From positions 1 to 42,477 of the IMG/VR virus record IMGVR_UViG_3300025000_000200: 42,477 nt of DNA. The stretch is one strand, 5' to 3'. The notes beneath the pieces are model-generated. The model searched no databases. It was given only the letters and a program-made list of their open reading frames with translations, and was not told where the DNA came from. Below, one piece after another: positions 4,714 to 34,872 of this stretch; positions within the stretch are counted from its first letter, which is position 1; the number at the start of each line of letters is the position of its first letter. The stretch comes from a virus. The translations under genes were made by a program, and so were the position numbers.

Positions 4714-5483
4714 GAACCATAAACCTCACAAGCCCACAGGGATGGCACGAACTTACGCCCGCACAGTTGCTGTTGATATCAGAACTTTACCTGAGTAAGT
4801 ATGAAGAGTCCGAATTTTTAACCAGGGCGCTGGTTGCATTAACCGGCTTGATTCCTGTACCTCATAAAATTGAAGCCGCCGAAATGGAGCTGTTATTTTC
4901 ATACCGTACTCCTGATGAAAACCCGTTCCAGGTTACTGTATCCGAAATGCACGAAATGTCAACCCGTCTGAAATGGTTGCTCGAATCACCAGGGCTTTGC
5001 ACTCCTCCAGACCTGTTAGAATACATTCCGGTAAATAACCGGCTGTTTGGCGTTCCGCTGGAGCAATACTTACTTGCCGATGCACATTACATCCGGTTTG
5101 CAAAAACAAAAGACCGTTCTATCCTGGATAAATTCGCGGCTGCACTCTATCGCGACAACGAAGACGAACAGTGGAGCGACCGGGCATGGAAAAAGCGGAT
5201 TCCTGAATTCGCCAGGCTCGACCTTCCTGAACTCAATGCCGTTTTTATCTGGTTCACCGGAGTAAAGGCTTACATCATGTCAAAGTATCCGTATGTTTTC
5301 CCCGGAACGGATGGTGGGAGAGACAAGGCATGCCTTGTCTCTCCAGACGAAACCATCCTCCAGCTCCTGGCTAATCTCAATGATGGAGATGTTACCCGTA
5401 ACCGCCTGATCATGGAAACGCACGTTCACGAAGTGCTTTATGAGTTGAATCTGAAAATTGAGCAATCAAATAGTAAATCGTAA
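4710..5483 (+). CDS. Conserved phage structural or assembly protein, unknown function
   Basis: A 257-residue protein overlapping the preceding gene by four bases. I do not recognise a domain. It is soluble and mostly helical, with an acidic start ([31 protein letters not shown] cannot be matched to a known motif beyond a helical bundle). Residues around 202-212 ([10 protein letters not shown]) are encoded by a perfect 28-bp palindrome at 5317-5344 that looks inserted; removing it would leave a shorter loop. Its position between the neck protein and the next small head-tail gene suggests a connector or chaperone. Confidence 0.6.
5317..5344. repeat. Perfect 28-bp palindrome inside a phage gene
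   Basis: GGAGAGACAAGGCA (5317-5330) is followed directly by its exact reverse complement (5331-5344). Palindromes with this GAGACAAGGCATGCC core are dispersed in many Bacteroidetes chromosomes. Here the copy is read in frame inside the gene at 4710-5483. Confidence 0.75.
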
Positions 5484-6336: not shown

Positions 6337-9300
6337 TGCAGAACGAAACCGCAAAAGCAACGATTTACCTTGATGGTAAACAGGCTGAAGCCGCCATTGA
6401 TGCGCTCAAACAGAAATCAAAAGAACTGAAGGTCCAGCTGGATGCTGCAAAAAAGGCAGGTGATAATATCACCATGAAGAAGTTGGAGAATGAAATCCGT
6501 AGCGTAGATGCTGCATCCCGCTCATTGCTTAAAGATTCGTTTGATGTCGAGAAGGTTCTGAAGAATATAAACAAGATATCATGGCGCGATCTGGAGAAAG
6601 CACAAAAAGCAGTTGTTTCAGAAATGAAACGCATGGAACGCGGTACTGATGCTTATGCAGCTAAAGCTAAAAATCTGGAAAAGATTACAACTGAGCTAAA
6701 TAAAACCCGTGGGGTGCTCAAGCAAAAGGAAAGCATGTGGGGGAGCCTGGCAAATGGAGCAAACAAATATTTCAACATGATCACCCTGGGCATCGCTACC
6801 CTTACTGGAGTTGTATTCTCAATGTCTCAATTTATTAAAGGTATGGTTGGCCTCGATGATGCTTTGGCTGATGTAATGAAAACGACTGGCTTAACCCGAA
6901 AGGAAGTGCGTGAAATGTATCAGGATTTCAGATACCTGAATACACGTACACCAAGGGCTGAATTGCTGTTATTGGCCGAAGAAGCCGGTCGTTTAGGTAA
7001 GACAGGGAAAAAAGACATCATGGATTTTGTTGAAGTAGCTAACAAAATCAAGATATCGCTCGGTGATGATTTGGGTGGAAATACAGAACTGGCCATCCGC
7101 GAAGTGGGTAAACTTACCGAGATATTTCAGGTAGGGCAGCAGTACAATACCGACTATAAAACAAGTCTCGAAAAAGTTGGATCCGGCCTAAATCAGGTGG
7201 CAAACAATTCAAACGCTTCTGCCGGTTATCTTATTGAATACATGAAACGGCTTGGAGGTATTTCCACCCAGGCGAAAATCACTGCCGCTGACATTATGGG
7301 GTATGCATCCACGTTCGACCAATTGGGTCAGAATGTTGAAATGGCAGCAACGGCGCAAAGTAAAGTAGTGGTCGACATGTTTACCGATCCGGGTAAATAC
7401 GCCAAAATTGCCAAAATGGAAGTTGGAGATTTCAGCAAAATGCTTAAAACAGATGCTAATGAAGCTTTCATTAAATTTCTGGAAGGATTGAACGGGAACA
7501 ATGAGGGTCTTTCCGTAATGGCTACAAAGCTCGATGCTTTGGGTATCGATGGCGCCCGGGCAACCCAAGCTTTGGCCGCGTTATCATCAAATACTAAAAT
7601 GCTGCGCGAACAGCAGATACTAGCAAATGATGCGATGCAGAAAGGAACCTCGCTGAATACAGAGTATGCAATTAAAAATAATAACCTGGCTGCATCCTGG
7701 GAAAAGCTTACTGTGTTTATCCGGTCAAAATTTATCAGTTCAAGTTTTATCAACTATCTTGAAAATATTATTGGTAAAATGGCCAAAATAACGGAAGTTT
7801 CCCGGGCTGATATATTTGTGAAACAGCAGCAGGAAGTAAACGGGCTTACTACTGAACTCACCGATTTAAATACCTCGCTCGACCGGCGCAGAGAAATACT
7901 TAAAAAGTTAAATGAAATTTCGCCTGAAATAGTAAAAGGGCTAAATGCTGAAGCTATTGCTATTGATACGTTGCGTGTAAATCTGGAAGCCTATAATACT
8001 GAAATGACAAATAAGATTATTCTGTCGCACTTAGAGGATGATGAGCAAAAGCAGGCGGCCATAGCTGCAAAATCAAAAGAAGCCTGGGCGAATGCCATGG
8101 CTGACGTGCATCAGATTATCGGAAAAACAAATACAGAATTGGCCACCAGCGAAATCTCACTTCAGGAGAAGATACAACGCACGATTGCTTTACTTAAGGA
8201 AAAAGCAACTGGTAGTATGCAGGTCAATCAGGCCGGAGTGCTGGTTGATTCACGAAATCAGGAACAAAAGTACCTCGAAAATATTATTTACCTGACCGGA
8301 GTAATTGAAAAAGAGCAAATCAACGTAAACAAGGCCGTTGCCGATCAGAAAGGATTTTCGGAACGCGCTAAAATTATTCGTGAATTATTAGGGCTGAATA
8401 AGCAAATTGCCAGCAATCCTGAAGGTAACGGTGATGATCCAAATTCTATAATTACTGATCCGAAAGAAATAAAAAAAGCATCCGACAAAGCCATTGAAGC
8501 CCTTGATGCAGCCAATAACGAGCGAACTGCCAAACTTATAACTCAATATGAAACTGAAGGTTGGAGCGATGCTAAATTTAAAGCCGAAATGCTCGCAGCC
8601 GAACAGGCTTACCTGCTCATGAAACAGGCATTGCTCACACAGTTCGGGCAAAGTACGGTAGATGGAGATAACCAGATTAATGCAAAACGTATTGAGGCAC
8701 AAAAGCAAGCCAATGCCGACATGAAGGCAGCCATGGACGAAGCCGAAAAAGACCATGAAGCACATATGAAGCGTGTTAATGAAACAGAGGATCTGGCTAT
8801 TGATGAAATGATAAAAAAAACAAATGAATCACTAAATAATATAGAAAAAGCTAAAGATAAGGAAGCCGATATTTTACAGCAACGTCAGCAAAACTACCTC
8901 GACTTTGCCATGAATGCCGGTCAGGCTTTCGGCGATCTGATGAACGACAATGAAGCAACAATGGCCGATTACCTGAAAACTACTCTAGTAATGGCTTTAG
9001 AGGCATTTCATCAATTCTTTTTGATCGAAAAGGCAAAAGCGATTATTTCAGGAATGGGCAAGGGACCTGTTGGAATTGCTATTGCAATTGCCAAGGTCAT
9101 TGCAATGGAAATTGCTTATCAGGCAGTAAAATCAGCATTAACTAAAAAAAACAAACAATCCGGAGGTTTTTCAAATACCGATGGGCCCGATAATGAACCT
9201 GATGGTATATATCACAAAGGAGAATTCATCGCATCTGCTCCTGCAGTGCGAAACCCAACCGTTAAGCCAATTTTAGATGTGATCGATATGGCGCAGCGCT

Positions 9301-14403: not shown

Positions 14404-16305
14404 ATGTTAACACTCACACTCCATAACCGAAACATCCCGCTCCCCCGAAATTTTTCGATGCGACTCACGGTTAAATCACCGTTTTTCGAATTCGAGAAAA
14501 TTCCCATGTCGTATTCGCTCGATTTTTCGTTACCTATGACCAACGAAATACTGGCTATTTTTGCCCATCCCGAGCGGATAACAAGGCGTAGGTATGGAAG
14601 CGATCAGAAGTTTTCGGGTTTTGAAGTGCGCTTTAAGGGATCGCTTTTCCTGGCTGGATCCATCACGGTAACTATTTCTTCCAACACGCTCAGTTGTACT
14701 GCCGTTGATGTGGTTGGTGTGTTGAGCGATGCCACCCGTGAGCGGTCTGTTTTAGATATCGCCAAATTTGCCGGGGAGATCGATTTTGTTAATTCCGCCA
14801 ACTTTTCACCCGATACCCATCCGTATTGTTGTTTCCCAATTATTAACCAGGAATTTTTCAAGGATAAGGGTATTAATATCAAACGAAAAAAGTATGTTGC
14901 CATTGAAGGCGGAGGCACGGAAGAAAATGGGGAGTTCGAAATGGAAGCGCTAACTTTTTGTTTCCTCAAAACCGTTGGAGCTCAGGTGAACGCACTCAAC
15001 ACAGACAAAACAGTTAAACAGATTGCTTCAACCATTGACATTTCAGATCCTTCCGAAAAAAATGCAAGTTACATGTCGGGTGAGGTGACTGTTGTCTCAC
15101 CGTTCTTTTTTCTGAATTACGTGATCAAGGCAGCGTTGAAAGCCAACAACCTGCATCTCGTTGAAAACTTTATCCAGGAAAATCCGGAATTAAAAAACAT
15201 TTGCCTGTACAATAATTTTGATATTACGGAAATGGATTATCAACAAGCCGAACTTATCGAAAGTTTCAATACAATGGAAATCGGCAAAGATGGCGATACA
15301 ATTATTCTTGATGGAGCCAATAAATCTTACGGACTACATATAATTGCATATCTCAGGTCGCATACTAATAATAAAATAATTCCAAAAAACCATCTGCCAA
15401 AAATGAATGTTGGTGATTTACTGCTATCCACCCAGAACGAGTTTAATTTGTGTTTCGATTTTCTTCCGGATTCAAGGGTTAATATTTTTTCGCGGGAAGA
15501 TTTACTGAGCCGCGAAGCCATCAGCCTTCATAAATATCTGGTCGGACGGCTCGAACCTGGCGAAAAAGAAAATACAGCCATTAATTTTGTCAGGAAAAAT
15601 GATGAGAAAGATAGAGTGTTTAGCGAACGTTTTGTTGATTTGGATGACCGGCGTGGGGACATTAAGGCCCCGGTTGCCGATTGGAATGAGTTGATTGCAT
15701 TAAATTCACCAGTTCAGGGAGAAATCAGGATGTTGGTCAGCAACCAAAAATTTTATGAATATAAATGGATTACAAATTCATCAACCAACCCATTTACTTA
15801 TGCTGAAACAACTACTGATGTTTTGGGGTGGGAGGAATTATCTATTGCTTTGCAAAATGGTTGGTACGATTATGGCCGCGAAAATGTAAAAAAGATTCAA
15901 ACAAATTTTGGAACATGTTATTGCCCGGCCGGAAAACCTTTTGTAGCACAGCAAGGAAACCAAACAGGATGGAAGGCAAGTGAACAGCCGTTTAGTCCGC
16001 GTCTCCTGATTTATGGAGGAAACAACACCGGGGGAAACGAAGTGCCCGGGTTGTCGCTCGAATATGAAAAGGAAGGAATTGGCCTGATTGAAAAGCACTG
16101 GAAGAAAACATCCAGGCTGTTGGCCGATGCATTACCAATGACCGGACAGTTCGATTTACCGGTAAATGTGCTTCATTCAATCATCTTTAACAAATGCCTC
16201 CCATACCGCACCGACGAAGCTTCCTTTTTTATCGATCAGATCAGCCTCGATCTGTTTGTTGATCATTTAGGTACTACCGAAATTAAAGCCTACAAACGCG
16301 AATAG
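14404..16305 (+). CDS. Large baseplate or tail-tip protein (putative)
   Basis: A 633-residue protein. The start (LTLTLHNRNIPLPRNFSMRL) and the block KSPFFEFEKIPMSYSLDFSLP are typical of a conserved Bacteroidetes phage protein encoded downstream of the fibre. It has mixed beta domains, no membrane segment and no recognised catalytic motif. Size and location fit a baseplate hub or tail-tip wedge. It is preceded by the CCCCTCC repeat, a REP-like element and the GTAAAT leader, so it is probably the first gene after a transcriptional break. A late promoter copy follows its stop. Confidence 0.6.
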   Translation: MLTLTLHNRNIPLPRNFSMRLTVKSPFFEFEKIPMSYSLDFSLPMTNEILAIFAHPERITRRRYGSDQKFSGFEVRFKGSLFLAGSITVTISSNTLSCTAVDVVGVLSDATRERSVLDIAKFAGEIDFVNSANFSPDTHPYCCFPIINQEFFKDKGINIKRKKYVAIEGGGTEENGEFEMEALTFCFLKTVGAQVNALNTDKTVKQIASTIDISDPSEKNASYMSGEVTVVSPFFFLNYVIKAALKANNLHLVENFIQENPELKNICLYNNFDITEMDYQQAELIESFNTMEIGKDGDTIILDGANKSYGLHIIAYLRSHTNNKIIPKNHLPKMNVGDLLLSTQNEFNLCFDFLPDSRVNIFSREDLLSREAISLHKYLVGRLEPGEKENTAINFVRKNDEKDRVFSERFVDLDDRRGDIKAPVADWNELIALNSPVQGEIRMLVSNQKFYEYKWITNSSTNPFTYAETTTDVLGWEELSIALQNGWYDYGRENVKKIQTNFGTCYCPAGKPFVAQQGNQTGWKASEQPFSPRLLIYGGNNTGGNEVPGLSLEYEKEGIGLIEKHWKKTSRLLADALPMTGQFDLPVNVLHSIIFNKCLPYRTDEASFFIDQISLDLFVDHLGTTEIKAYKRE

Positions 16306-16314
16306 TTTGTCCTT

Positions 16315-16350
16315 TCCATCATTGGCATGGCATTATATATTTGAATAAAC
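16315..16350 (+). promoter_or_regulatory. Candidate late promoter, copy 3
   Basis: AGTTTGTCCTTTCC begins about 7 nt after the stop of the baseplate gene; TATATTTG (16343-16350), a perfect TAnnTTTG box, lies 26 nt after the T of TCCTTT (16317). The downstream gene starts at 16367, leaving a leader of about 16 nt after the box. Confidence 0.7.
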
Positions 16351-16366
16351 ATTTAAAAAGTACACC

Positions 16367-16630
16367 ATGAATTTGCATGACACCAAATCAAAAAAAGTAA
16401 TCCTTCAGGCATACGGCAAACCAGTTACTAATTTGGCTGCTGCCGATTTTTCAATTGCCGGTAATGCATTCAAGGTTAAAAATGACAATGAAAACCGGGT
16501 GCAACTGGAGGTTAAATATTTTGGAAGTACTGTTTGGGTTTCCACCTATTTTTTACCGGGATGGAACGAGGATGTAATTATTGCCATCAAGCAAAATGCT
16601 TTAGTTTCGAACCTACTTTATACTGAATAA
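16367..16630 (+). CDS. Small phage protein, unknown function
   Basis: An 87-residue protein, first in the transcript from candidate late promoter copy 3. It looks like a single small beta domain (VILQAYGKPVTNLAAADFSIAG, then VQLEVKYFGSTVWVSTYFLPGW). No motif is recognised. It lies two bases before the next small gene and is probably a tail-tip or fibre accessory protein. Confidence 0.6.
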   Translation: MNLHDTKSKKVILQAYGKPVTNLAAADFSIAGNAFKVKNDNENRVQLEVKYFGSTVWVSTYFLPGWNEDVIIAIKQNALVSNLLYTE

Positions 16631-21460: not shown

Positions 21461-22612
21461 TTAGAGCGGGGGCATCTTCAACTTTATCTCAAGGTTTTCA
21501 TACAAACCCATGCTTTTTAAATAATTGTCAGTTTCAGCAATGGAATGATGTCGGCACTGGAGCTGGATCCGCTTCAGATCAACACCAGCTTTATATGCTC
21601 TCACAACTCCGGTATGTTTCCAGGAATAAAGTGTATGGTCGGTTGAAAAATTATGCTTCTCCAAAAACTTACGGTGCCGGTCGTTCATCCTGTTTTTTGA
21701 AATACATCCCGATTTTTGACCAGGAAAAAGATATTCTCCTGAAGATTTAAATTGCACCAGGTTAATTATCGAATCGATCAGTGAATCGGGGATCGTTACG
21801 AACTCACTTTTATTGTTCTTCGAAACAGAGGCATCCACATAAATCATACGATTAGCAAGCCTGATATCAGACACTTTTAACTGACGGACCTCATTTGGCC
21901 GAATGAATGTATTATAGATGATCTGAATAAAACTCCAAAGTTCTGGATCGGCCACCGAAATTTCATTCTTAAGAAGTTCAATTTCTGAATCATTATAAGC
22001 CAGGTTTCTGAGGCTTCGTTCTTCCTTTTGTTTTTCGAGTTCTGAAAATGGATTGACTGAAATTATTTCACGCTTTTTAAGAATACTCCAGAGCCGTTTG
22101 ATGTAACTGATATCAGAATTGATTGTACTGCCCTTAATCCCGCAGCTTAACCGCCAATCAATATACTGATAGGCGTCCTTTCTCCTGAATTTATCAAGTT
22201 GAATACTATCCAATCCATTCTTTTCAGCCCACTCAATAAAAATATTCGTTGTAGAAGAGTAGGAGTTATATGAATTGCCTTTAAGTCCTGAAATTTTCAG
22301 GGCGTATTCCATTCCTTTCCGGATCGTCAAATCAATTGACTTTTCTTCAACCTTATTGCTGACATGATAACCATCTTCAAGCAACTGATTGATCGCTTTG
22401 ATCCGTGCTTTAGCGTAAGCCCTGCGGATGCGGATCGTGTCCGCTTCGTCTTTTCCAATCTCCTTATTAATGGCATAATCCCAACGGCGAATTGTCTTTT
22501 TCTCGACATCGCTCCAAACCCAGAACTGGATATACCACCGGCTGGTTAGATTGCCTTTTCGGTCATTTAACAATGCTTCTTTGTAGGGTAATTTTTCTGT
22601 CTGTGTCATCAT
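21461..22612 (-). CDS. int: Tyrosine integrase
   Basis: A 383-residue site-specific recombinase on the minus strand. I start it at the double Met (22612, MMTQTEKLPYKEALL); a longer open frame to 22870 runs through non-coding DNA and into the repressor gene. The N-terminal third is the arm-binding region (SRWYIQFWVWSDVEKKTIRRW), and the middle is the core-binding SAM-like helical domain. Catalytic residues: Arg in TFIRPNEVRQLK, Lys near VSKNNKSEF, His in LYSWKHTGVVRAYKAG, CRHHSIAETDNYL with His and the Tyr nucleophile. The second catalytic Arg of HxxR is replaced (HTGV); I recall the same in a group of Bacteroidetes phage integrases. It should catalyse prophage integration. Confidence 0.88.
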   Translation of the reverse strand: MMTQTEKLPYKEALLNDRKGNLTSRWYIQFWVWSDVEKKTIRRWDYAINKEIGKDEADTIRIRRAYAKARIKAINQLLEDGYHVSNKVEEKSIDLTIRKGMEYALKISGLKGNSYNSYSSTTNIFIEWAEKNGLDSIQLDKFRRKDAYQYIDWRLSCGIKGSTINSDISYIKRLWSILKKREIISVNPFSELEKQKEERSLRNLAYNDSEIELLKNEISVADPELWSFIQIIYNTFIRPNEVRQLKVSDIRLANRMIYVDASVSKNNKSEFVTIPDSLIDSIINLVQFKSSGEYLFPGQKSGCISKNRMNDRHRKFLEKHNFSTDHTLYSWKHTGVVRAYKAGVDLKRIQLQCRHHSIAETDNYLKSMGLYENLEIKLKMPPL

Positions 22613-22829
22613 TTTTATCAGTTTTAATTGATTGAAAAGAGGCACCGAACAGAACACAACTGTGTCAACAGGTGTGTCAAGGTATAAAACAAGAATCCCA
22701 ATTAACTGAAAAACAATTAATTGGGTTAGTATGAGGGTGGATGATGGGATTTGAATTTTTTCAATTTTTTCATTTATAAAGTGCTGGATATCAGTCCAAC
22801 ACTTTCTTATTTCGCGCAATATCACTGTG
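22613..22829. other. Int-repressor intergenic region, candidate attP or arm-site region
   Basis: This 217-bp AT-rich stretch lies directly upstream of the integrase start. It contains TGTGTCA at 22661-22667 and 22673-22679, and two more copies at 22826-22832 and 22836-22842 that run into the end of the repressor gene. Between the pairs lies a hairpin, CCCAATTAA (22697-22705) with TTAATTGGG (22717-22725). Paired direct repeats flanking a central region next to int are what arm-type integrase or excisionase sites look like; the crossover core is not identifiable from the window. Confidence 0.4.
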
Positions 22830-23273
22830 TCATTCTGTGTCATTCTGAGTATCAGTATTATAAGGGTCAATTTTGTGCTTTAATAATAGAGATTTCAGAT
22901 AGGCATTTTCCCGGAGTAGTGCCCTGTTTTCAACAGTAAGGTGATGTATAATTTCCTTGTTTGTTTTCTTCTCTCGAAGCGGATCCTTGGCCAAACGATG
23001 AAAATCCATTCGCGGATCTTCATCGACTTTCACTAATGCATCTGATTTCTCATTCTCTGGAGGATAAGTGACAGGATCGTTTGTGTAGAAATAAGATGGA
23101 TCAACTCCTAATAACTTTGCCAATGGAATGGCATAATCCATGTTTAGGCCTTTAATTTTACCCTTCTCAATTTGAGAACACCAACCTCTTTGTTTGCCAA
23201 TAGCAAGGCTTAAATCTTCTTGTACAAGATTATTTTTCTCGCGTAACACCTTGATTTTCTCGCCTAAATTCAT
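22830..23273 (-). CDS. CI-like HTH repressor
   Basis: A 147-residue DNA-binding protein on the minus strand. I use the Met at 23273 (MNLGEKIKVLREKNNLVQED), since it aligns with the usual start of the fold. Residues 5-62 are an XRE-type HTH: IKVLREKNNLVQEDLSLAIG, GWCSQIEKGK and MDYAIPLAKLLGVDPSYF. The C-terminal half is a charged helix with a Leu-rich coiled coil (HLTVENRALLRENAYLKSLL) that could dimerise it; there is no peptidase domain of the LexA type. It faces a Cro-like gene across 107 bp holding two 19-bp operators, the layout of a lysogeny switch. Confidence 0.8.
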   Translation of the reverse strand: MNLGEKIKVLREKNNLVQEDLSLAIGKQRGWCSQIEKGKIKGLNMDYAIPLAKLLGVDPSYFYTNDPVTYPPENEKSDALVKVDEDPRMDFHRLAKDPLREKKTNKEIIHHLTVENRALLRENAYLKSLLLKHKIDPYNTDTQNDTE

Positions 23274-24635: not shown

Positions 24636-24707
<72 letters not shown>

Positions 24708-24792
24708 CACGGTGAATGAAGCAAACTGGAGTAGAATCCTGATCGGTGCTCCGGGGCTTCACCTTTAATTTTAACGAACTAAAACTAAAAGT

Positions 24793-25967: not shown

Positions 25968-26432
25968 ATGGAATTAACACTTAAAAAAACAACAGCTAAA
26001 AAGCTTTATCCTGAAGCACCTAAGTGGTTTCAGAAAGTACTGATTGAAACTTTTGGAGAAGATTACTTCAAAAAAAGAGATTTTACAGACATCAAAACCT
26101 TTGAGGATGCCTGCGAAGAATTGGAAATATATCCGACCGATGTATTTAATGCAAATGACTGCTCGGATGAAGTGGCCTACAAAAAACTGAAGGTTATCGC
26201 AAAGGCAATTAACCAGGGTTGGATACCCGATTGGGACAATACCAATCAGCAAAAATGGTCGCCTTGGTTTAAACTGTCTTCCGGTTTCGGTTTTTCGCGC
26301 TCGGATTACTACTACGATCACTCGGATGCGAGTGTCGGCTCTCGCCTTTGCTTCGAATCTGAGGCAAAATCAGACTATGCTGCGACTCAATTCATTGACA
26401 TTTACGAACAATTCTTAACCATTAAAAAGTAA
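25968..26432 (+). CDS. DGR variable protein 1 (C-type-lectin-like)
   Basis: A 154-residue target protein of the DGR. Residues 1-100 are a conserved part (TFEDACEELEIYPTDVFNAN, then GWIPDWDNTNQQKWSPWFKL). The C-terminus is the variable CLec-type region: LSSGFGFS, then SVGSRLCFESEAKSDYAATQ and FIDIYEQFL, the standard pattern of Bacteroidetes DGR targets. Variable codons at about residues 103-128 come from the VR1 repeat (26274-26351). By family, the variable surface binds ligands. It is neither fused to nor next to the tail genes, so the site of display is unknown. It starts six bases after a tiny hydrophobic peptide gene. Confidence 0.88.
   Translation: MELTLKKTTAKKLYPEAPKWFQKVLIETFGEDYFKKRDFTDIKTFEDACEELEIYPTDVFNANDCSDEVAYKKLKVIAKAINQGWIPDWDNTNQQKWSPWFKLSSGFGFSRSDYYYDHSDASVGSRLCFESEAKSDYAATQFIDIYEQFLTIKK
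26274..26351 (+). repeat. DGR variable repeat VR1
   Basis: A 78-nt repeat from CTGTCTTCC to CTTTGC. Aligned without gaps to the template (26880-26957), it differs at 14 positions, every one a template adenine, and matches at all 56 non-adenine positions. Changes are mostly A to G, with some A to C and A to T. Confidence 0.92.
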
Positions 26433-26436
26433 ACCC

Positions 26437-26844
26437 ATGGCCAAAAAATCAGCAAAAAACCAACCTGTATTCGATTTCAGAACAATCAAATCGTTTGAAG
26501 ATGCGTGTGCGAAAGAAGGTATTGATCCAACAGCGCTGCCGGATGTATCGATGATCCCGGAAGAGTTCCGCAAACCAATCATCAACGCCTATAAGCTGAT
26601 GATCATCTTCCTTGCAATTAATAACGGATGGAGACCCGATTGGAGTGACTCAGATCAATACAAATACTTCCCTTGGTATGGGGTTCTGTCTTCCGGTTTC
26701 GGTTTTTCGAGCTCGGGTTACGGCTTCGGTAGCTCGTTTACGCGTGTCGGCTCTCGCCTTTGCACCGATACTTCAGAGAAGGCCATGTACATAGCCGAAC
26801 AGTTCAAGGCTGAATACCAGGAATACTTCCTCTATCCGGAGTAA
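26437..26844 (+). CDS. DGR variable protein 2 (C-type-lectin-like)
   Basis: A 135-residue protein and second DGR target, starting four bases after the first. It shares the layout of VP1 (SFEDACAKEGIDPTAL versus TFEDACEELEIYPTDV; NGWRPDWSDSDQYKYFPWYG) and the CLec-like end: VLSSGFGFS, then RVGSRLCTDTSEKAMYIAEQ and FKAEYQEYF. The two probably arose by duplication, with VP2 shorter at the N-terminus. Its variable repeat (26686-26763) ends only 116 nt before the template. Confidence 0.88.
   Translation: MAKKSAKNQPVFDFRTIKSFEDACAKEGIDPTALPDVSMIPEEFRKPIINAYKLMIIFLAINNGWRPDWSDSDQYKYFPWYGVLSSGFGFSSSGYGFGSSFTRVGSRLCTDTSEKAMYIAEQFKAEYQEYFLYPE
26686..26763 (+). repeat. DGR variable repeat VR2
   Basis: The 78-nt counterpart of VR1 in the second variable protein. 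It differs from the template at 18 of 22 adenines and at none of the 56 other positions. Homology extends three bases further upstream (GTT). Confidence 0.92.
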
Positions 26845-26876
26845 AATAAAAAAGGTTGTACGCTGCGTTGCTGCTA

Positions 26877-26957
26877 GTTCTGTCTTCCAGTTTCAGTTTT
26901 TCGAACTCGAATTACAACTACGATAACACGAATACGAATGTCAGCTCTCACCTATGC
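26877..26957 (+). repeat. DGR template repeat (TR)
   Basis: The non-coding template between VP2 and the reverse transcriptase, with the core at 26880-26957. It has 22 adenines, most in AAC and AAT codons (read in the VR frame: NSNYNYDNTNTN), the classic adenine-rich template. The first bases (GTTCTGTCTTCC) and last (TATGC) mark its limits. TR RNA is copied by the reverse transcriptase with errors at A, and the cDNA replaces the VR. Confidence 0.92.
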
Positions 26958-27055
26958 GATACTGGCAGTGTAGACCTTGCCAACAGTGCAAAAAATAACG
27001 AATTCTTTAACGGCGCTGGTAGCCAGAGCAAAAGCGACCAATAAAAAGCAAAGGC

Positions 27056-28015
27056 ATGAAACGGATCAATAATTTGTACGAGAAGATATATAGCATCGAA
27101 AACCTCCAGCTGGCCGATGCAATTGCCCGGAAGGGTAAGTCGAAACAGCCAGGAGTAATCGGGCACGACCGGAACCGGGAAGAAAATATTCAAAAGCTTC
27201 ATGAAATGCTGAAGGATAAAACCTATCAAACATCTGAATATACTACGTTCACCATCTTTGAACCTAAAGAGCGGCTGATCTTCCGGTTGCCTTATTTTCC
27301 TGATCGAATCACCCATCACGCTGTGATGAACGTCCTTGAGCCGATTTTCGTGTCAACATTCACCGCAGATACTTACAGTTGCATCAAAGGAAAAGGCATC
27401 CATGCTGCGGCTAATGCAGTGAAACGAGCATTAAAAGATTTGGAAAATACCCAATACTGCCTGAAGCTTGATATTAAGAAGTTTTACCCGAATGTTGATC
27501 ACGATATTCTAAAGCAACTGCTTCGCCGGAAATTCAAGGATAAGGACCTGCTTTGGTTGCTCGATGAGATTATTGACAGCACGGATGGACTCCCCATCGG
27601 CAATTACCTGAGCCAGTACTTTGCCAATTTTTACCTGAGTTACTTCGACCACTGGATGAAGGAAAATAGGCGTGTGAAGCATTATTTCCGCTATGCCGAT
27701 GATCTTGTAATCCTTTCCAGCAGTAAGCCTTATTTACATCAATTGCTTTCTGAAATCAAAACTTACATGCAGGAAAATCTGAAACTAACTGTGAAAGGAA
27801 ACTACCAGGTATTCCCGGTTGATGCGCGGGGAATTGATTTTGTTGGTTATGTTTTCCGACACACTCATACGCTGCTCCGGAAGAGCATCAAGCAGAACTT
27901 TTCCCGAATGCTTAAAAGCAGAAAAAATGCACAGTCAATCGCATCATATAACGGTTGGGCAGCGCACTGTAATAGCAAAAACCTTCTGAAAAAATTGCTC
28001 CATGAACACGTTTAG
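27056..28015 (+). CDS. DGR reverse transcriptase
   Basis: A 319-residue group-II-intron-like reverse transcriptase of the DGR class. Visible motifs: FEPKERLIFRLPYFPDRITH (about 68-87), YCLKLDIKKFYPNVD with catalytic Asp139, GLPIGNYLSQYFANFYLS (178-195), whose IGN..SQ form is diagnostic of DGR enzymes, RYADDLVIL with Asp215 and Asp216, and GIDFVGYVF (259-267). It lacks maturase and endonuclease domains, and its length is normal for DGRs. It works on the template RNA encoded 100 bases upstream. No accessory Avd-like gene is recognised between the variable proteins and the RT. The end overlaps the next gene by 14 bases. Confidence 0.93.
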   Translation: MKRINNLYEKIYSIENLQLADAIARKGKSKQPGVIGHDRNREENIQKLHEMLKDKTYQTSEYTTFTIFEPKERLIFRLPYFPDRITHHAVMNVLEPIFVSTFTADTYSCIKGKGIHAAANAVKRALKDLENTQYCLKLDIKKFYPNVDHDILKQLLRRKFKDKDLLWLLDEIIDSTDGLPIGNYLSQYFANFYLSYFDHWMKENRRVKHYFRYADDLVILSSSKPYLHQLLSEIKTYMQENLKLTVKGNYQVFPVDARGIDFVGYVFRHTHTLLRKSIKQNFSRMLKSRKNAQSIASYNGWAAHCNSKNLLKKLLHEHV

Positions 28016-28504: not shown

Positions 28505-28921
28505 ATGAAAATCTACTACAAAAACCGACTTATTAAGCGCGTTAAGGAAAAATATCAGGTGATAAAGAACATCACCGATTATCTGGAGGACTTTGAACAC
28601 ATAAGGCCAATAAAAGCCGAGATCAGATATTTAGATCAGGCGTTATTTGAGGAGCAAATATCATGGCTTACTTTAAAATTTAAATATAACGAGCCGCTTG
28701 TATATGAGCAGATACAGCAGGCAAAACCGGTTAAAGCCTACCGGGTAACTACCAGCGACGGTCAGATATACTATTCGTTAGAATTCAGTAACGGCCTTTC
28801 GGTTCGTTGTCCGGAACAAATCTTTCGCATTGCACCGGTAAAGATGAAACTGAAGCAAACCAATTCACTATCCAGGCAGATAGCCCCACCATCAGTTGAA
28901 CAATTAAGACTTTTCGGATAA
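28505..28921 (+). CDS. Early protein with a C-terminal sliding-clamp-binding motif
   Basis: A 138-residue protein with a beta-rich centre (KAYRVTTSDGQIYYSLEF and LSVRCPEQIFRIAPV) and a Lys-rich N-terminus. Its last residues are EQLRLFG, which match the bacterial beta-clamp-binding consensus QL(S/D)LF except for one residue. A clamp peptide at the very end, after a flexible linker, is typical of clamp-recruited proteins. The rest is unknown. It overlaps the next gene by one base and lies upstream of the primase-helicase. Confidence 0.65.
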   Translation: MKIYYKNRLIKRVKEKYQVIKNITDYLEDFEHIRPIKAEIRYLDQALFEEQISWLTLKFKYNEPLVYEQIQQAKPVKAYRVTTSDGQIYYSLEFSNGLSVRCPEQIFRIAPVKMKLKQTNSLSRQIAPPSVEQLRLFG

Positions 28922-29241
28922 TGATCGAACACGGAATACCCAAACACGACTATTTTGCGATAGCACAGCCGATATCGGTAGCTCACCCAACTATTGACGT
29001 GCTGAAACCGGACTACGTTAAACCCATTCTCGACTTTCAGGATCCGAACTCCAAAGTGAAATTTCAGGCCGAGCTTCAGGATACCTGGACGGTGTCTTCG
29101 GCTGAATTAGAATTTATGAATTCGTTATGCCTGCTCACCTATGGCATTGAAGCAAAAAAACTCCTGAAGGTTCTCGAAAAGCGATATCCTGAAATCGTTC
29201 AAACCAAAAAAGTACGGTTCCTGCTCCTGAAGAAAATCTAA
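28921..29241 (+). CDS. Small replication-region protein, unknown
   Basis: A 106-residue protein sharing one base with the stop of the preceding gene. The N-terminal half is Pro-rich (GIPKHDYFAIAQPISVAHPT), and the second half is a helical bundle (ELEFMNSLCLLTYGIEAKKL followed by KKVRFLLLKKI). No motif is recognised. Its position just before the primase-helicase suggests a helper in replication. Confidence 0.6.
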   Translation: MIEHGIPKHDYFAIAQPISVAHPTIDVLKPDYVKPILDFQDPNSKVKFQAELQDTWTVSSAELEFMNSLCLLTYGIEAKKLLKVLEKRYPEIVQTKKVRFLLLKKI

Positions 29242-29269: not shown

Positions 29270-32251
29270 ATGAAATATATTGAATCTGACAAGATCTTAG
29301 AGGCTACCAGTCACGGACTGGATGTCTTCAGTCATTACTTCCCTGGAGAAGATTTAACCAATCCCAAACACAAGTTTAAGGAACGTAAAGACGAAAAATC
29401 AGCTTCGGCCCAGCTCGCACTATTTAAAGGACAATGGCGGATCACCGACTTTGGCAACCAATCGGTAATCAACAGCCTGAACTGCATTGCATACGTGATG
29501 TACCGCGAATCGCTGATGTATATCGATGCCCTGCGCTTCATCGAGGAAGTGATTGTTCGGCACGAAATCGAGAGCTCCGGGTTCAAAAAGCCAATTTATC
29601 AGGCTGAATACTCCTGGAGAGAAGTTGAAGCGACCGACAAAAAAGGGGAGTATGCTTTTGTTTATAAAGCCCATGCTTCGGATAAGGATCTGGCCGCAAT
29701 TGGCCGTTACGTTACCGCTGAATTGATCGAAGATTTTAAAATAAAGTCGGTTGAATCGTATTCGCTTTGTTCTTATTCTGATAAATATAAACGTGATATC
29801 GTCCACAATTTCAAGTCAACCGACGAATACCCGATTTTTGCGCTCGATGGCAGCGCCTTCAAAAAGATATACAAACCGCACGAACCGGATAAAAAATACC
29901 GTTTCAGCTATGCCGGAAAGAAACCCAGCAATTACATTTTTGGCCTCGACCGGCTGAAGCGTGTAGAGAATGAATTTGTTGATGAAAAAGGCGAATACAA
30001 CTACAAAGGATCGGAATACAAAACCCCGCACATTAAGGACCTGATCCGTTGTTCCGGTGAATCGGACGCGCTGAACCTGGCATCTATCGGATATCATGTT
30101 TACTGGCTTAATTCGGAATCGGCCAACCTCGATAAAGATGATTTCACAGAACTGGATGATATGTGCGAGAATCATTACCAGTTGATGGATCTGGACGATA
30201 CCGGCAAACGCATGGCCATGGAATTCGCGCATAAACACATGAACCTTTACACCATCCAGCTTCCGGAGTGGCTGAAGCTGAAAAAAGACTGGCGGGGAAA
30301 CCCGTGCAAGGATGTGAAGGATTTCATTAACATTGCCGGAGCCGATCAGGACGAAACGATGCACCAGTTTGGGGTATTGAAACGCCGGTCGTTCCAGATG
30401 AAATTCTGGCAAAAGAAGATCGAGGAAACCAAAGGCGTGAAAGTGGTGAACTATAACCTGAACCTGGAGAACTATTATTATTTTCTGGAATCGAACGGGT
30501 TTTATGTGACCGACTCGAAATACCACCGTAAAGCCGGTTACTGCTACGCTAAAATTGACGGAAAGACGGTGGAGCTGATCAACCCGGAACAAATTAAGAA
30601 GATCATCAAGCGTTTCACGAAGAACTGGATCCGGAGCAAGAACCTGCTCGATGAAGTGGCCATCCTGAATAAAATTAACTCGAGCAACCAGATCAGCGAA
30701 AACAACCTGCAGGAATTGCGCGAAATTGAACTGGAGTTCCGCAACCATAAAAAAGGATTGGAATGGCTGCATTTCAAGAACGGATCGCTCCGGATCACTC
30801 AGGATAAAATTGAGAAGGTGAAACACGATGAAGTCCCGAATTTTATCCTGGGAAAACTGGATGTGAACGATACCATCATTTCGCACCAGGTTGACCAAAA
30901 CATAAGGGTAGAGGAGAAACCTGCGATAGAAATTTTACCAACCGCAAAGTATGGCGCTTTACTTGACCGACTGAAGAATGCCCGAACCACCGAAGATCGC
31001 GAAAACATTAACGTAGAGCTGGCCAACTTCCCGGAGTTGGACCGATATCAGGTAACAATCAATGACGAAGAATTTATTTGGGTCCGCTTTCTGAAGGACC
31101 TGGCACATATTCACTGGCGCAAAGAGCTGGAAGATAAAGAAAAACTTAATGAGGAGGAGAAAAAGGAGCAGGATTTGCTGCTGGCGAACATCATGTTCGT
31201 GTCAGGTTACATCACGGCCCAATATAAGAACCCCGGAAAGCCGTGGCTGGCTTTCCTTCAGGACATCAAAATATCAGCCATTGGCCAGTCGGCAGGCCGC
31301 TCCGGAAAATCGCTCCTGACCGTGGCCATGAGCAAAATACGGCCTTCGTTTTACATCGGTGGCCGCCGAAAGGATATCACCGAAAAAACCGAGTTTATTT
31401 ACGACGGTTACACCCGGTTCCACAACTTTATTGAGGTTGACGATTTGTACGAATGGGCCGAGTTCAATTTTTTTTACACCCAGGTAACCGGTAAGCGCGA
31501 AGTAAACTCCAAGCATATTTCGAAACAGATATTGGATTACGACGAGTCGGGAAAAATGATTATCAGCTCAAATTTTGAACTTCCGAACACCGACAGCTCT
31601 ACCATTGCCCGGATACTGAACACCGCCGTATCTGATTATTACCACGAAAAAACCAAGTATAACGATTACCGCGAAAACCGCTCGCCATTGTCGAAATATG
31701 GCCGGATGCTGTTTGATGAATTCACCGAAGAGGAGTGGAACAAGTTTTACAATTTCATGGCCTACTGCATCCAACTGCAGATGCGCTTTTTCAAGATTCA
31801 GCCGCCAATGGCCAACCTCGAAAAACGGCAATTGCGCCGGTTGATGATCAAAGGGGTATCGAAAGACGAAGAATTCTTCAGATGGGCAAATACATACTTC
31901 TGTATTCCTCCTGATCCACGACCGGCCATCAGCCCCGAAGAGCATGGCTATTTCAACGTGATGATGATCCGCGAAACGGCATTTAAGCAATTTCGCGAAA
32001 GCCTGACCGACCTGCAGGGCAAAAAATACAAGTCGGGTCAATTTAAGCAATCGTTGGAAGCCTGGTGCGAATATTACGGTTACGAGCTTAACCCGATGCC
32101 GTTGTGTACCGGCAAAAATGCTGCTGAAGAGCGTCGAATACTCAAAACAATAGATAACAAAACAACAGAGTGTTTTTATATCTCAACTACACCGCTCCAG
32201 GTTGGCGCCGATGAACTCACGCCCGACGAAGAGGAAAAATTACCATTCTAA
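29270..32251 (+). CDS. Primase-helicase (Toprim plus P-loop helicase)
   Basis: A 993-residue replication protein. Residues 35-100 resemble the small domain preceding Toprim (KFKERKDEKSASAQLALFKG). Toprim motifs follow at about 263-310: GESDALNLASIG with the catalytic Glu264, and LMDLDDTGKR with the acidic DLDD. The C-terminal half has Walker A GQSAGRSGKSLL (about 671-682), Walker B HNFIEVDD (about 717-724), and the SF3-like IISSNFELP and later segments seen in D5-type phage helicases. It would unwind DNA and prime synthesis. The order Toprim then SF3 helicase is typical of Bacteroidetes temperate phages, which lack their own polymerase; none is visible here. Confidence 0.85.
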   Translation: MKYIESDKILEATSHGLDVFSHYFPGEDLTNPKHKFKERKDEKSASAQLALFKGQWRITDFGNQSVINSLNCIAYVMYRESLMYIDALRFIEEVIVRHEIESSGFKKPIYQAEYSWREVEATDKKGEYAFVYKAHASDKDLAAIGRYVTAELIEDFKIKSVESYSLCSYSDKYKRDIVHNFKSTDEYPIFALDGSAFKKIYKPHEPDKKYRFSYAGKKPSNYIFGLDRLKRVENEFVDEKGEYNYKGSEYKTPHIKDLIRCSGESDALNLASIGYHVYWLNSESANLDKDDFTELDDMCENHYQLMDLDDTGKRMAMEFAHKHMNLYTIQLPEWLKLKKDWRGNPCKDVKDFINIAGADQDETMHQFGVLKRRSFQMKFWQKKIEETKGVKVVNYNLNLENYYYFLESNGFYVTDSKYHRKAGYCYAKIDGKTVELINPEQIKKIIKRFTKNWIRSKNLLDEVAILNKINSSNQISENNLQELREIELEFRNHKKGLEWLHFKNGSLRITQDKIEKVKHDEVPNFILGKLDVNDTIISHQVDQNIRVEEKPAIEILPTAKYGALLDRLKNARTTEDRENINVELANFPELDRYQVTINDEEFIWVRFLKDLAHIHWRKELEDKEKLNEEEKKEQDLLLANIMFVSGYITAQYKNPGKPWLAFLQDIKISAIGQSAGRSGKSLLTVAMSKIRPSFYIGGRRKDITEKTEFIYDGYTRFHNFIEVDDLYEWAEFNFFYTQVTGKREVNSKHISKQILDYDESGKMIISSNFELPNTDSSTIARILNTAVSDYYHEKTKYNDYRENRSPLSKYGRMLFDEFTEEEWNKFYNFMAYCIQLQMRFFKIQPPMANLEKRQLRRLMIKGVSKDEEFFRWANTYFCIPPDPRPAISPEEHGYFNVMMIRETAFKQFRESLTDLQGKKYKSGQFKQSLEAWCEYYGYELNPMPLCTGKNAAEERRILKTIDNKTTECFYISTTPLQVGADELTPDEEEKLPF

Positions 32252-32262
32252 ACGAGTTAATT

Positions 32263-32694
32263 ATGCGCAATAGAACTTCAAAAGGGATAAAAGTTATCTG
32301 GACTCAGGAAATGATTGATACGCTGAAGAATAAATTTCCGATTGAGTATAATAAGTATCTCGCCATTTCACTTGGCGTAAGTATCCGCACATTAATAAGA
32401 AAGGCCAGGGAACTGAAAATTGATAAAGAACCTGGATTCCTTGAAATAAGACGAGGCGAGATTTCACGTCTGGCTAGCGCATTTCGGCCACCAAATCCAA
32501 CCAAAGGATTGAAAGGCTGGAGCGTACCCAATAGCGAAGCATCAAGGTTTAAACCGGGCAATATTTCACCAATGGCTGTAAGTTGGGTGGTGAGAGATAA
32601 AGTGCGTAAATCGAGGTTAAAAACCATTGAAGCTGAACGATACAGGATCAGGGAGGGATTAGATACGATAACCAAGTTAAAATTAAAAATATGA
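32263..32694 (+). CDS. HTH protein (putative DNA-binding regulator)
   Basis: A 143-residue basic protein. The N-terminal half reads like a helix-turn-helix (WTQEMIDTLKNKFPIEYNKY, then LAISLGVSIRTLIRKARELK). The second half contains ASAFRPPNPTKGLKGW and SRFKPGNISPM, the kind of linker found in NUMOD-type proteins near HNH endonucleases, but no nuclease motif follows. Lying in the early operon directly after the primase, it is another candidate regulator. It overlaps the next gene by four bases. Confidence 0.6.
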   Translation: MRNRTSKGIKVIWTQEMIDTLKNKFPIEYNKYLAISLGVSIRTLIRKARELKIDKEPGFLEIRRGEISRLASAFRPPNPTKGLKGWSVPNSEASRFKPGNISPMAVSWVVRDKVRKSRLKTIEAERYRIREGLDTITKLKLKI

Positions 32695-33098
32695 AATCAA
32701 CATGTTCATGCTGCGGAAAGCCGCTGGAAGATCCTTTTTCAGTTTCCATAGGAATTGGCCCGGTTTGCCGGGTAGCAAAAAAACTGAAAGAACTGGCCGA
32801 TAAATCTGGCAACCTGTTTGCCAATCGTGCTGAGTATGAATATGGCATTCAGGGTGAAGTAATCTGGATTACAGACGAATTGGGAATGAAGTCGGTAACC
32901 AATGATATGGGCAGCATTCTGGCCGATATCATCCGGGAAGAAAAGATTGATCTGTGCCGGTACAAAATTATGTACTGCGATTCTCAAGGCGTTTGGGATG
33001 GTGTTCGGATTGGCCCATCCGGGAACGTCCAGTTCTTGCCGATCGGAGAAGTGAAGTTGCACCATGCCAAACAGAAATTAATTGAAATGACATTTTAA
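32691..33098 (+). CDS. Zinc-ribbon protein with CxxCGKxL...GxGPxC N-terminus
   Basis: A 135-residue protein. Residues 5-28 read CSCCGKPLEDPFSVSIGIGP followed by VC, the short treble-clef-like zinc motif (C-x2-C-G-K-x-L then G-x-G-P-x-C) that is frequent in phage early proteins. The remainder is a small alpha/beta domain with VIWITDELGMKSVTNDM. The function is unknown. It overlaps the preceding gene by four bases and the next starts two bases after its stop. Confidence 0.7.
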   Translation: MKSTCSCCGKPLEDPFSVSIGIGPVCRVAKKLKELADKSGNLFANRAEYEYGIQGEVIWITDELGMKSVTNDMGSILADIIREEKIDLCRYKIMYCDSQGVWDGVRIGPSGNVQFLPIGEVKLHHAKQKLIEMTF

Positions 33099-33099
33099 T

Positions 33100-33312
33100 A
33101 TGATCGTTAAATTTCATGTACTCCAGCGCGATGATGAGACCGGCGAAACCCGGCACTGGCCAATTTTTACCCAGGAATGGGGTTTAATCATGGTTGGTCA
33201 GCAAATAACCTTTGCAGGGGTTCGTTACCAGATTTATGAAACTGAGTGGCTGGATATGAAAGAAGGGGTGTTAAAGGTCGTTTGTTTAGAGATACCGGGG
33301 CCAGTGGAATAA
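33100..33312 (+). CDS. Small beta protein, unknown
   Basis: A 70-residue protein starting two bases after the zinc-ribbon gene. It reads as a single beta sheet domain (MIVKFHVLQRDDETGETRHW, VGQQITFAGVRYQIYETEWL, VLKVVCLEI). No match is recalled. It is probably part of the same early operon. Confidence 0.6.
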   Translation: MIVKFHVLQRDDETGETRHWPIFTQEWGLIMVGQQITFAGVRYQIYETEWLDMKEGVLKVVCLEIPGPVE

Positions 33313-33343
33313 CGGATTTGATAATTTACTTAATATCAAAAAT

Positions 33344-33682
33344 ATGGATGAAAAGATAAACCAGGTTGCTGGATTAATTTGTGCAACAAAGTTGACATTT
33401 GAACAAACCGTTGAATTACTACGAGATTTAATGGAAACACCGGAATTTAAAAAACAGTTTAGAGCAACTATTTTCGACGAAAAAATCCTGATTACAACAC
33501 AAAACAACAACAAAGAGGCATTTGAGGCCAAAATTAAAGCCAAACACGAAATAAAAATAGGATGGCACGACTGGATTGAAACAGAAGAAAATTCATTGAA
33601 TTATTATGAGTGTTGTGGAATTTTATTGCTTTTTGGTGTCAATCCGCCTGAATATAAGGAGTTGTTCACTTTGTTAGCCTGA
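33344..33682 (+). CDS. Small protein, last of the early operon
   Basis: A 112-residue protein with a helical N-terminal half (INQVAGLICATKLTFEQTVE) and a C-terminal half with YYECCGILLLFGVNPPEYKE. No family is recognised. It is followed by an attC-like hairpin and a terminator, which set the end of the early transcript. Confidence 0.6.
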   Translation: MDEKINQVAGLICATKLTFEQTVELLRDLMETPEFKKQFRATIFDEKILITTQNNNKEAFEAKIKAKHEIKIGWHDWIETEENSLNYYECCGILLLFGVNPPEYKELFTLLA

Positions 33683-33775: not shown

Positions 33776-33804
33776 AATCCTGATCGGAAAACGGTCAGGA
33801 TTTT
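33776..33804 (+). terminator. Terminator of the early operon
   Basis: AATCCTGA (33776-33783) pairs with TCAGGATT (33795-33802) and is followed by TTG and TTT. It lies about 95 nt after the last early gene. Confidence 0.7.
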
Positions 33805-33805
33805 G

Positions 33806-34347
33806 TGTTTTATGCCACCCTGAAGCGCTTGGTTTGTTCCCGCAGGTAGTATTCAATAGCACGCCGAAGGACATATAACTAAAAATTTAGTTGGTTTTTG
33901 CCCTGCCGTTCCCTTCCCTTTAACCCTAATTTTTAATATATATTTGTAATCTGTAATTTTATATATATTATTCGAAGAATCAACAAGATACAGGATTACA
34001 AAAAAATTACAAACTCAATTTTTGTTTGTAATTTTTAAAATGAGAAGGACAGGCAAGTGGCATCTAAGAGCAAAAATTACAAAAATTACAAATAAAACAG
34101 TGTTTTGTAATTGCTGATAATCAGAGCATTACAAAACAGTATCAAATAGGTTTGTAATTTGTAATTAACTTATTATTAGTACTTTATACCATGCAAAATA
34201 CCTAAATTACAAATTTTTTCTGTTTTTAGCGAAAAAAATAGGGGTATGGTTTTTTTGCTGTTTCTTTTAACAAAATAAATAGTAGATTTGAAACAGCTTT
34301 AATCACCGGTTTAAAAAAGTAAATTTTAACCCGTGACACTATAAGCT
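33806..34347. other. AT-rich non-coding region with TTGTAAT motif cluster
   Basis: No gene is seen in this 540-bp gap. Between 33944 and 34212 lie eleven exact copies of TTGTAAT, five on the plus strand (33944, 34026, 34105, 34152, 34159) and six inverted as ATTACAA (33995, 34006, 34076, 34085, 34128, 34206), plus CTGTAAT at 33951. Dense short motifs in AT-rich DNA suggest an iteron-type replication origin or a multi-site binding region for a regulator. A TAnnTTTG box follows at 34283. Confidence 0.6.
34283..34290 (+). promoter_or_regulatory. Candidate promoter of the gene at 34348
   Basis: TAGATTTG is a perfect TAnnTTTG -7 box. A TTTG lies upstream with a 25-nt gap, longer than the usual 19-21, so the -33 element is uncertain. 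Confidence 0.4.
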
Positions 34348-34872
34348 ATGCTCAAAAATGTAAACCTCCAGACCAAACCCAAAATTACCATTTCAATTTC
34401 TGAAGTACTCGAAGCCTGGTGCCGTTATGTATTCGATACTCCCATCAGTCAGAAAGAAATTATCCTCCGCAGAACTCATGCAATTGGAAAACTGATTTAT
34501 TCCAAAGTTTCAGTTTCGTATGTTCCGGTAAAGAAGTCCTGTCTCGATCGCCAGGTAACTATTATTTTGCCGGTACACAACACGAACCATCATGCTTTAA
34601 AAAATCATTTTTTGCACATCGACAATTTTGCCCAGGAACAAATTCAGGATGGACTGGATTATGAGTTCAGAAAATGGATACAGCAGCGGTTTGAACGTGG
34701 ATATGAAAAGGGTTTCGATCAGAAGCAAATTATTGAAGCTATCCTCCGCGGATTAAACCTCCGGAATAATGCAGCGAATTTTGATGCAATCAAAAAAAAT
34801 GATTACCGAAACAGGCGCAGATCAGAGGAAAAACGGTTTAAAGAGCTTCTAACGCTCTGTATATGTGAGTAA
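34348..34872 (+). CDS. Basic protein after the iteron-like region, possible DNA-binding protein
   Basis: A 174-residue, highly basic protein that I do not recognise. It opens with ISISEVLEAWCRYVFDTPIS, followed by an Arg/His-rich central region (LRRTHAIGKLIYSK) and an Arg-rich C-terminus (NDYRNRRRSEEKRFKELL). Net charge and position directly downstream of the TTGTAAT cluster make it a candidate for binding those sites, which is inference. It is transcribed from a TAnnTTTG promoter and not from a late promoter copy. Confidence 0.55.
   Translation: MLKNVNLQTKPKITISISEVLEAWCRYVFDTPISQKEIILRRTHAIGKLIYSKVSVSYVPVKKSCLDRQVTIILPVHNTNHHALKNHFLHIDNFAQEQIQDGLDYEFRKWIQQRFERGYEKGFDQKQIIEAILRGLNLRNNAANFDAIKKNDYRNRRRSEEKRFKELLTLCICE

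Follow-up and report, generated by a model that had tools for sequence, protein, structure and literature searches.

The array of short repeats in the gap that separates the early from the head genes of this phage is very probably an iteron replication origin of a temperate Bacteroidota phage, bound by the phage's own SF3-type primase-helicase. The DNA analysed, referred to here as the window, is a 42,477-base virus record from IMG/VR, and site searches and shuffles delimit within it an array of eleven exact TTGTAAT copies plus one CTGTAAT at 33944-34212 (no strand assigned). The initial annotation had counted five direct and six inverted copies, and an exact search found every one at its reported position, with starts at 33944, 34026, 34105, 34152, and 34159 on the plus strand and at 33995, 34006, 34076, 34085, 34128, and 34206 on the minus strand. 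The twelfth iteron, CTGTAAT at 33951-33957 on the plus strand, abuts the first and carries a single mismatch, and an exact TTGTAAT occupies this place in L009, L016, L025, and L017. The placement of the array in an AT-rich non-coding gap ahead of the head genes also holds: the DNA is non-coding, the segment 33930-34279 has 23% GC, the last of the early genes (33344-33682) lies to the left, and gene 34348 lies to the right. Four small open reading frames (32263-33682) stand between the primase gene (29270-32251) and the array.

The density of the repeats exceeds what AT-rich DNA would give by chance, as had been proposed. None of 5000 order-1 and none of 5000 order-2 Markov shuffles of 33930-34279 reached eleven copies, the highest counts being 4 and 7 respectively. 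Across the window there are 26 copies of TTGTAAT against 9.2 expected, a number equalled in none of 100 shuffles. Equal density in other AT-rich gaps had been named as an observation that would speak against the array, but the densest 270-bp stretch elsewhere in the window contains 2 copies, so the array stands on this comparison. Among 448 random 1200-bp segments drawn from array-bearing loci, away from the arrays, none has seven copies of any 7-mer per 400 bp, and the maximum is five.

Counted from the first iteron, the sites stand at offsets 0>, 7>', 51<, 62<, 82>, 132<, 141<, 161>, 184<, 208>, 215>, and 262< (arrowheads give orientation and the prime a mismatch). The same offsets and orientations, one-mismatch sites included, recur in L009 and L174; L009, whose primase is 80% identical to that of the window, has one additional site at offset 239. 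A repeat search identifies an inner block at 34002-34033 (plus strand), in which an inverted and a direct iteron lie 20 bp apart, and which recurs 79 bp away at 34081-34112 with 75% identity; another inverted iteron starts beside it at 33995.

Several other elements accompany the iterons. Matches to the E. coli IHF consensus, which we take to be WATCAANNNNTTR, are found on the plus strand at 33978-33990 (AATCAACAAGATA, between the first two iteron blocks) and at 34119-34131 (AATCAGAGCATTA). Both window copies have one mismatch and the window array has no exact match, but exact matches occur at the first offset in L011, L013, and L018, and at the second in L008 and L175. With a pattern chosen post hoc, after the sequences had been inspected, we count 23 exact IHF-like matches in 18 of the 56 arrays described below, against a mean of 1.6 and a maximum of 3 in 15 shuffled sets, and 120 one-mismatch matches against a shuffle mean of 53. 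Pattern scans also locate a C-tract, CCCTTCCCTTTAACCC, about 20 bp to the left of the first iteron (33911-33926, plus strand) and a G-tract, AGGGGTATGG, on the right (34240-34249, plus strand). These patterns too were selected after inspection, and a strict C-tract pattern, outside which the window's own tract falls, lies within 90 bp to the left of 29 of the 56 arrays (background 1.4%), while GGGG lies within 90 bp to the right of 17 of them (background 9%). In most arrays of the TTGTAAT/TTGTAAC group the G-tract is 27-30 bp to the right of the last iteron. A hairpin scan finds an intrinsic-terminator-like hairpin of 11 pairs followed by a T-rich tail at 33776-33802 (plus strand), to the left of the array; such hairpins, the pattern for which was likewise picked after inspection, occur within 320 bp to the left in 27 of the 56 arrays, against 12 of 296 in the background. 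A short dyad, ACTAAAAATTTAGT (33878-33891, no strand assigned), is visible to the left of the C-tract, and by eye L009 and L004 have similar ones.

Relatives carry arrays at the same place, made of different words. This holds for loci gathered through the primase and for loci gathered through the 34348 protein. The 34348 protein (174 aa; 34348-34872, plus strand) is encoded by the first gene of the head module and belongs to a widespread, strongly diverged family; it has no Pfam match and itself gives no tblastn match among phage records, where relatives were found through L022 and L074. Widening the family with three alignments yielded 113 matches, 80 after removal of duplicates, and four with less than 400 bp upstream were dropped. 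In 57 of the 76 upstream regions tested the count of one 7-mer is above that in all 60 shuffles, and in the other 19 no 7-mer rises above the shuffles. The set kept, with at least five copies as well as a count above the shuffles, comprises 56 entries from 55 loci (L107 is counted twice), each with its array upstream of the 34348-family gene at the early/late junction. The words are 7-9 bp long and vary among relatives, including TTTGTAAT, TTTGTAAC, TTTGTTAC, TTTGTGAC, TTTGACGG, CTTACTT, GGTTGTAAG, TGTAGAA, TGTAGTA, TGTAGGTCG, TGTTGGAC, and TGTGGTA. The 56 arrays span 95-377 bp with 5-14 sites, so the exact layout in the window is not common to all of them, and the order of orientations varies in the more distant arrays.

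Phage isolates and prophages are among these loci. In the 18.8-kb locus from Polaribacter phage Leef_1 (L021), 13 of 36 TGTAAT copies lie inside a 520-bp gap at 15,939-16,460; Bacteroides phage BT-TP2 (L022) has 11 GTAAC in a 600-bp gap and 27 in the rest of its 13.5 kb; and a Porphyromonas gingivalis prophage record (L173) has 11 TGTTGGA at 8614-8909. The array regions in Leef_1, BT-TP2, and the Porphyromonas prophages are unannotated or partly called as small open reading frames. In L173 the small annotated frames that overlap the array (8435-8979) may not be genes. Scanning viral contigs with an 18-bp pattern gave 59 stretches, mostly with just 2-3 copies per 300 bp; dense clusters appear in L025, L037, L054, L062, L064 (where the stretch stops within the gene), L068, and L074, and L048 has 6 copies. 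No 34348 relative was detected in L048 or in the 10.3 kb examined of L068, a 67-kb contig. L068 has a DUF5906 helicase gene immediately upstream, and a 9-copy TTGTAAT array within 4400-5100 starts at about the end of that gene.

Of the 55 array loci, 42 encode a primase relative of 700 aa or more within the 10 kb upstream. In 11 of the remaining 13 the sequence available upstream of the gene is shorter than 3.6 kb; L109 instead has a VapE-like P-loop ATPase upstream (E 1.1e-17) and L142, by eye, a P-loop ATPase open reading frame. We compared the words with both proteins in the 42 loci that encode a 34348 relative together with a primase relative of this length. Motif similarity, scored by a measure of our own construction, rises with primase identity (Spearman 0.59; partial 0.590, as high in 0 of 2000 permutations) but not with 34348 identity (Spearman -0.006; partial -0.031, reached in 1470 of 2000). 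The set contains near-duplicate loci, and after thinning to 35 loci at 85% primase identity the partial correlations are 0.555 for the primase (0 of 5000 permutations) and -0.006 for the 34348 protein; over the 227 pairs in which the 34348 proteins reach an identity of 0.3 they are 0.78 and -0.08. In the 13 pairs whose 34348 identity exceeds 0.7 the median motif similarity is 0.98, and such close relatives often share both proteins. Every listed pair that joins primase identity of 0.5 or more to 34348 identity below 0.42 has motif similarity of at least 0.64. By these sequence comparisons the repeat word follows the primase-helicase, not the 34348 protein. A sliding-window correlation along the primase gave no segment that stands out as a specificity domain, and residues 851-985 have weak positive partial correlations only.

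The primase-helicase (29270-32251, plus strand) is a 993-aa protein with an acidic tail ending in PF. PF is also the ending of 31 of the 42 proteins compared, frequently behind acidic residues (for example DDLPF), and resembles the protein-docking tail of single-strand-binding protein. Pfam gives only a weak Toprim match for the window protein (E 0.088), but its relatives have clear DnaG zinc-finger and Toprim domains, and the relative in Leef_1 is annotated as DNA primase/TOPRIM. A model of residues 555-993 (mean pLDDT 82.8) has its best PDB match in SaPI5 Rep (7ola, Z 14.9, 210 residues aligned, 3.7 A), for which a second structure, 7om0, scores Z 14.4, followed by AsfvPrimPol, NrS-1, vaccinia D5, MPXV E5, and papillomavirus E1; Foldseek alone places NrS-1 first (E 1.9e-6). 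The C-terminal half is thus, as modelled, an SF3/D5-type helicase, the type of protein expected beside an SF3 origin. Model residues 344-418 (pLDDT about 90) run strand-helix-helix-helix-strand-strand, a winged-helix-like order, and with the whole C-terminal-half model as query the NrS-1 and AsfvPrimPol alignments run through model residues 416-419. A PDB sequence search with the primase profile returned a single chance-level match, and neither the primase nor the 34348 protein had a useful match in PHROGs.

A second candidate binder is a 106-aa protein encoded just upstream of the primase (28921-29241, plus strand), since its family, present in 13 loci, co-varies with the motif as well (rho 0.87); it may be an accessory binder that takes part in initiation. 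That this or some other early protein inherited with the primase is the actual binder, acting as an origin-binding loader, we regard as very unlikely: BLAST detects the 106-aa family in only 13 of the 42 loci, and relatives of the primase accompany most word classes. Small proteins diverge fast, so the absence of the 106-aa family from the other loci is weak evidence.

Other features of the early region of the window include a tRNA-Met gene (anticodon CAT) at 24636-24708 and a diversity-generating retroelement at 25968-28015. The latter has a reverse transcriptase (27056-28015; PF00078, E 4.9e-19), a template repeat at 26880-26962, and variable repeats in two early genes that are paralogues (26274-26356 and 26686-26768), with 16 of 19 and 20 of 23 mismatches on template adenines. 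By eye, several related phages have relatives of this reverse transcriptase a short way upstream of their arrays (L011 9468-10463 and the upstream open reading frames of L123 and L142).

Arrays were also reached by a route independent of the 34348 gene. Searching bacterial genomes with the C-terminal half of the primase gave 18 Bacteroidota loci, in hosts that include Labilibacter sediminis, Marinifilum breve, Pedobacter terrae, and Maribacter flavus, and 13 of these have a 7-14-copy array downstream of the primase (maximum 5 in 20 shuffles of each). Seven of the 13 (L183, L184, and L187-L191) have an array with no detected 34348 relative, L184 spanning just 1.1 kb downstream; therefore the array goes with the replication gene. 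The remaining five lack a clear array: L179, L182, and L185 span only 0.5-3.0 kb downstream, L176 spans 4.6 kb, and L178 has 5 copies where the shuffles give at most 4.

Since the array sits where the early genes give way to the late ones, and 27 of the 56 entries have a terminator-like hairpin to the left, it might instead be a late-promoter control region or an early-to-late switch with no origin function, to which the primase-helicase or some other early protein would bind. We consider this account highly improbable. In L190 and L191 the array window begins 100-150 bp past the primase match, and 5-14 sites over 95-377 bp with an SF3 initiator-type partner suit an origin better. Sigma-70-like sites in the gap number 4 against 3.9 in shuffles, and Bacteroidota promoters differ from these.

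The initial annotation had offered two main options, an origin, with the primase-helicase as a possible binder, and a multi-site operator for the basic protein encoded at 34348. The latter, in which the 34348 protein would bind the array and control its own late operon, is exceedingly unlikely. Relatives of the 34348 gene do lie downstream of all 56 array entries, but this follows from the construction of the set, and the protein is basic at its C-terminus, with a long helical C-terminal part in its model (pLDDT 87.4); a PDB fold search with this model gave nothing convincing (best Foldseek E 1.1, best Z 4.4). The motif is uncorrelated with the identity of this protein, and the 13 listed pairs that combine similar 34348 proteins (identity 0.55 or more) with dissimilar primases (below 0.45) all have motif similarity of 0.52 or less. 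The decisive pair is L018 and L086, which, judged from the alignments, is a natural swap. Their 34348 proteins are 97% identical and the three genes that follow are 87-90% identical, but the word is TTGTAAC in L018 and CTTACTT in L086. The L018 primase shares 94% identity with the one in L011 (TTGTAAC) and the L086 primase 58% with the one in L004 (CTTACTT), against 14% in the alignment of L018 with L086, so that an operator for the 34348 protein is already contradicted by this exchange. In L018, moreover, the array is 983 bp from the gene, with a terminator-like hairpin and other DNA between them, and 7 of the 18 host-genome loci have an array with no detected 34348 relative. An origin bound by the primase-helicase is favoured over the operator because the word tracks the primase, because the C-terminal half of that protein models as an SF3 helicase, and because arrays lie downstream of the primase even where no 34348 relative was detected.

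A packaging site or an attP-like recombination site, with arm sites and IHF sites, is the most improbable of all, since the resemblance of the repeats and IHF-like sites to arm-type arrays, and a recombinase-type gene that adjoins the array in Leef_1 and lies within 1 kb of the gene in L146, are set against a word that follows the primase, putative terminase genes 5-8 kb off, a tyrosine integrase at 21461-22870, 11 kb from the array in the window, and the 3' cos ends that PhageTerm predicts for Leef in the excerpts of PMC8776804. An integrase arm-site array was accordingly rejected at that distance. Also rejected were a Rep_3 iteron-plasmid origin, as Pfam finds no Rep_3 among ten proteins around the array; a DnaA-type origin, as no TTWTNCACA box lies in the array and the nearest is at 34610; and a Bacteroidetes-type promoter array, on a comparison with the consensus by eye.

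The proposed origin would operate as follows. The initiator would be the phage's own primase-helicase, whose predicted C-terminal winged-helix domain would bind the 7-9 bp TTTGTAAT iterons, standing in blocks of both orientations, while host IHF/HU-like proteins would bend the DNA between the blocks. Bound initiator would assemble into SF3 hexamers that melt the AT-rich DNA (23% GC), load themselves, and unwind outwards, and primers would be made by the primase half of the initiator or by host primase. This chain from binding through hexamerisation and melting to unwinding is drawn by analogy with known systems. The GC-skew analysis proposed in the initial annotation gave no sign of an origin, the cumulative skew having no inflection at the array and no turning point at 34 kb. 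The sequences show the array, its conserved place and, in close relatives, its layout, the co-variation of the word with the primase-helicase and not with the 34348 protein, and the SF3-type model; from these we infer the origin function, and likewise the binding and its domain, hexamer loading, IHF/HU bending, priming at the C- and G-tracts, and the start of replication here.

As expected of an SF3 origin, multiple copies of a short repeat occupy AT-rich, non-coding DNA on the downstream side of the helicase gene, and the repeat specificity co-varies with the initiator. Several known replicons have comparable features. The alpha protein of phage P4 combines a primase, an SF3-type helicase, and C-terminal origin binding, and the P4 ori and crr iterons are non-coding; the iteron word, the host phylum, and the single-array layout here differ from these. 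Iteron plasmid origins of the Rep_3/RepA type have clustered short repeats, AT-rich DNA, and IHF-like sites, like the array described here, but in the window there is no Rep_3-type initiator among the proteins scanned and no DnaA box in the array, and the short repeats stand in both orientations. In SaPIs the specificity differs between relatives, as it does among these arrays. The SaPI replicon also shares an SF3-type self-loading helicase, SaPI5 Rep being the best fold match obtained, and according to the excerpts of PMC7581432 SaPI Rep uses its C-terminal domain to recognise several short iterons directly downstream of its own gene. Unlike SaPIs, which are satellites, the elements here are full-sized phages of Bacteroidota; the distance from gene to array may be several kb, the array being at the early/late junction; the 5-14 iterons run in both orientations, accompanied by IHF-like spacers and C- and G-tracts; and relatives of the window primase have DnaG-type zinc-finger and Toprim domains. 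By the same excerpts the related D5-type helicase Cch2 of SCCmec similarly binds repeats downstream of its gene, at a putative origin, through a C-terminal domain. That origin has only three 5-nt iterons, and SCCmec has a separate primase-polymerase pair. From helicase type, placement, and co-variation, the array would by analogy work like an iteron origin of the SaPI/P4 type.

Among the open-licence papers in PMC full text we found no title or abstract describing such origins in these phages. The main text of PMC10367356, on P. gingivalis prophages, lacks the words 'iteron' and 'primase', and the excerpts of PMC8776804 describe cos 3' ends and an integrase for Leef and name no origin. With these arrays a wide range of Bacteroidota phages gain a likely origin and initiator; among them are oral Porphyromonas prophages and two isolates, Polaribacter phage Leef_1 and Bacteroides phage BT-TP2.

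A wider reading, which we put forward as possible but rather doubtful, is that these arrays constitute a Bacteroidota-wide family of phage origins, ranging over gut, oral, soil, and marine hosts, in which initiator and word change together fast and move as a cassette between head modules. If this is true, the words would define replication-compatibility types, as in plasmids; the C- and G-tracts, both rich in C on the strand that templates leading-strand synthesis as the fork moves out, would be primer starts for the primase of the initiator; and the element would be a compact two-way origin with no need for host DnaA. The natural swaps and the many words provide material for studying how initiators change their DNA specificity.
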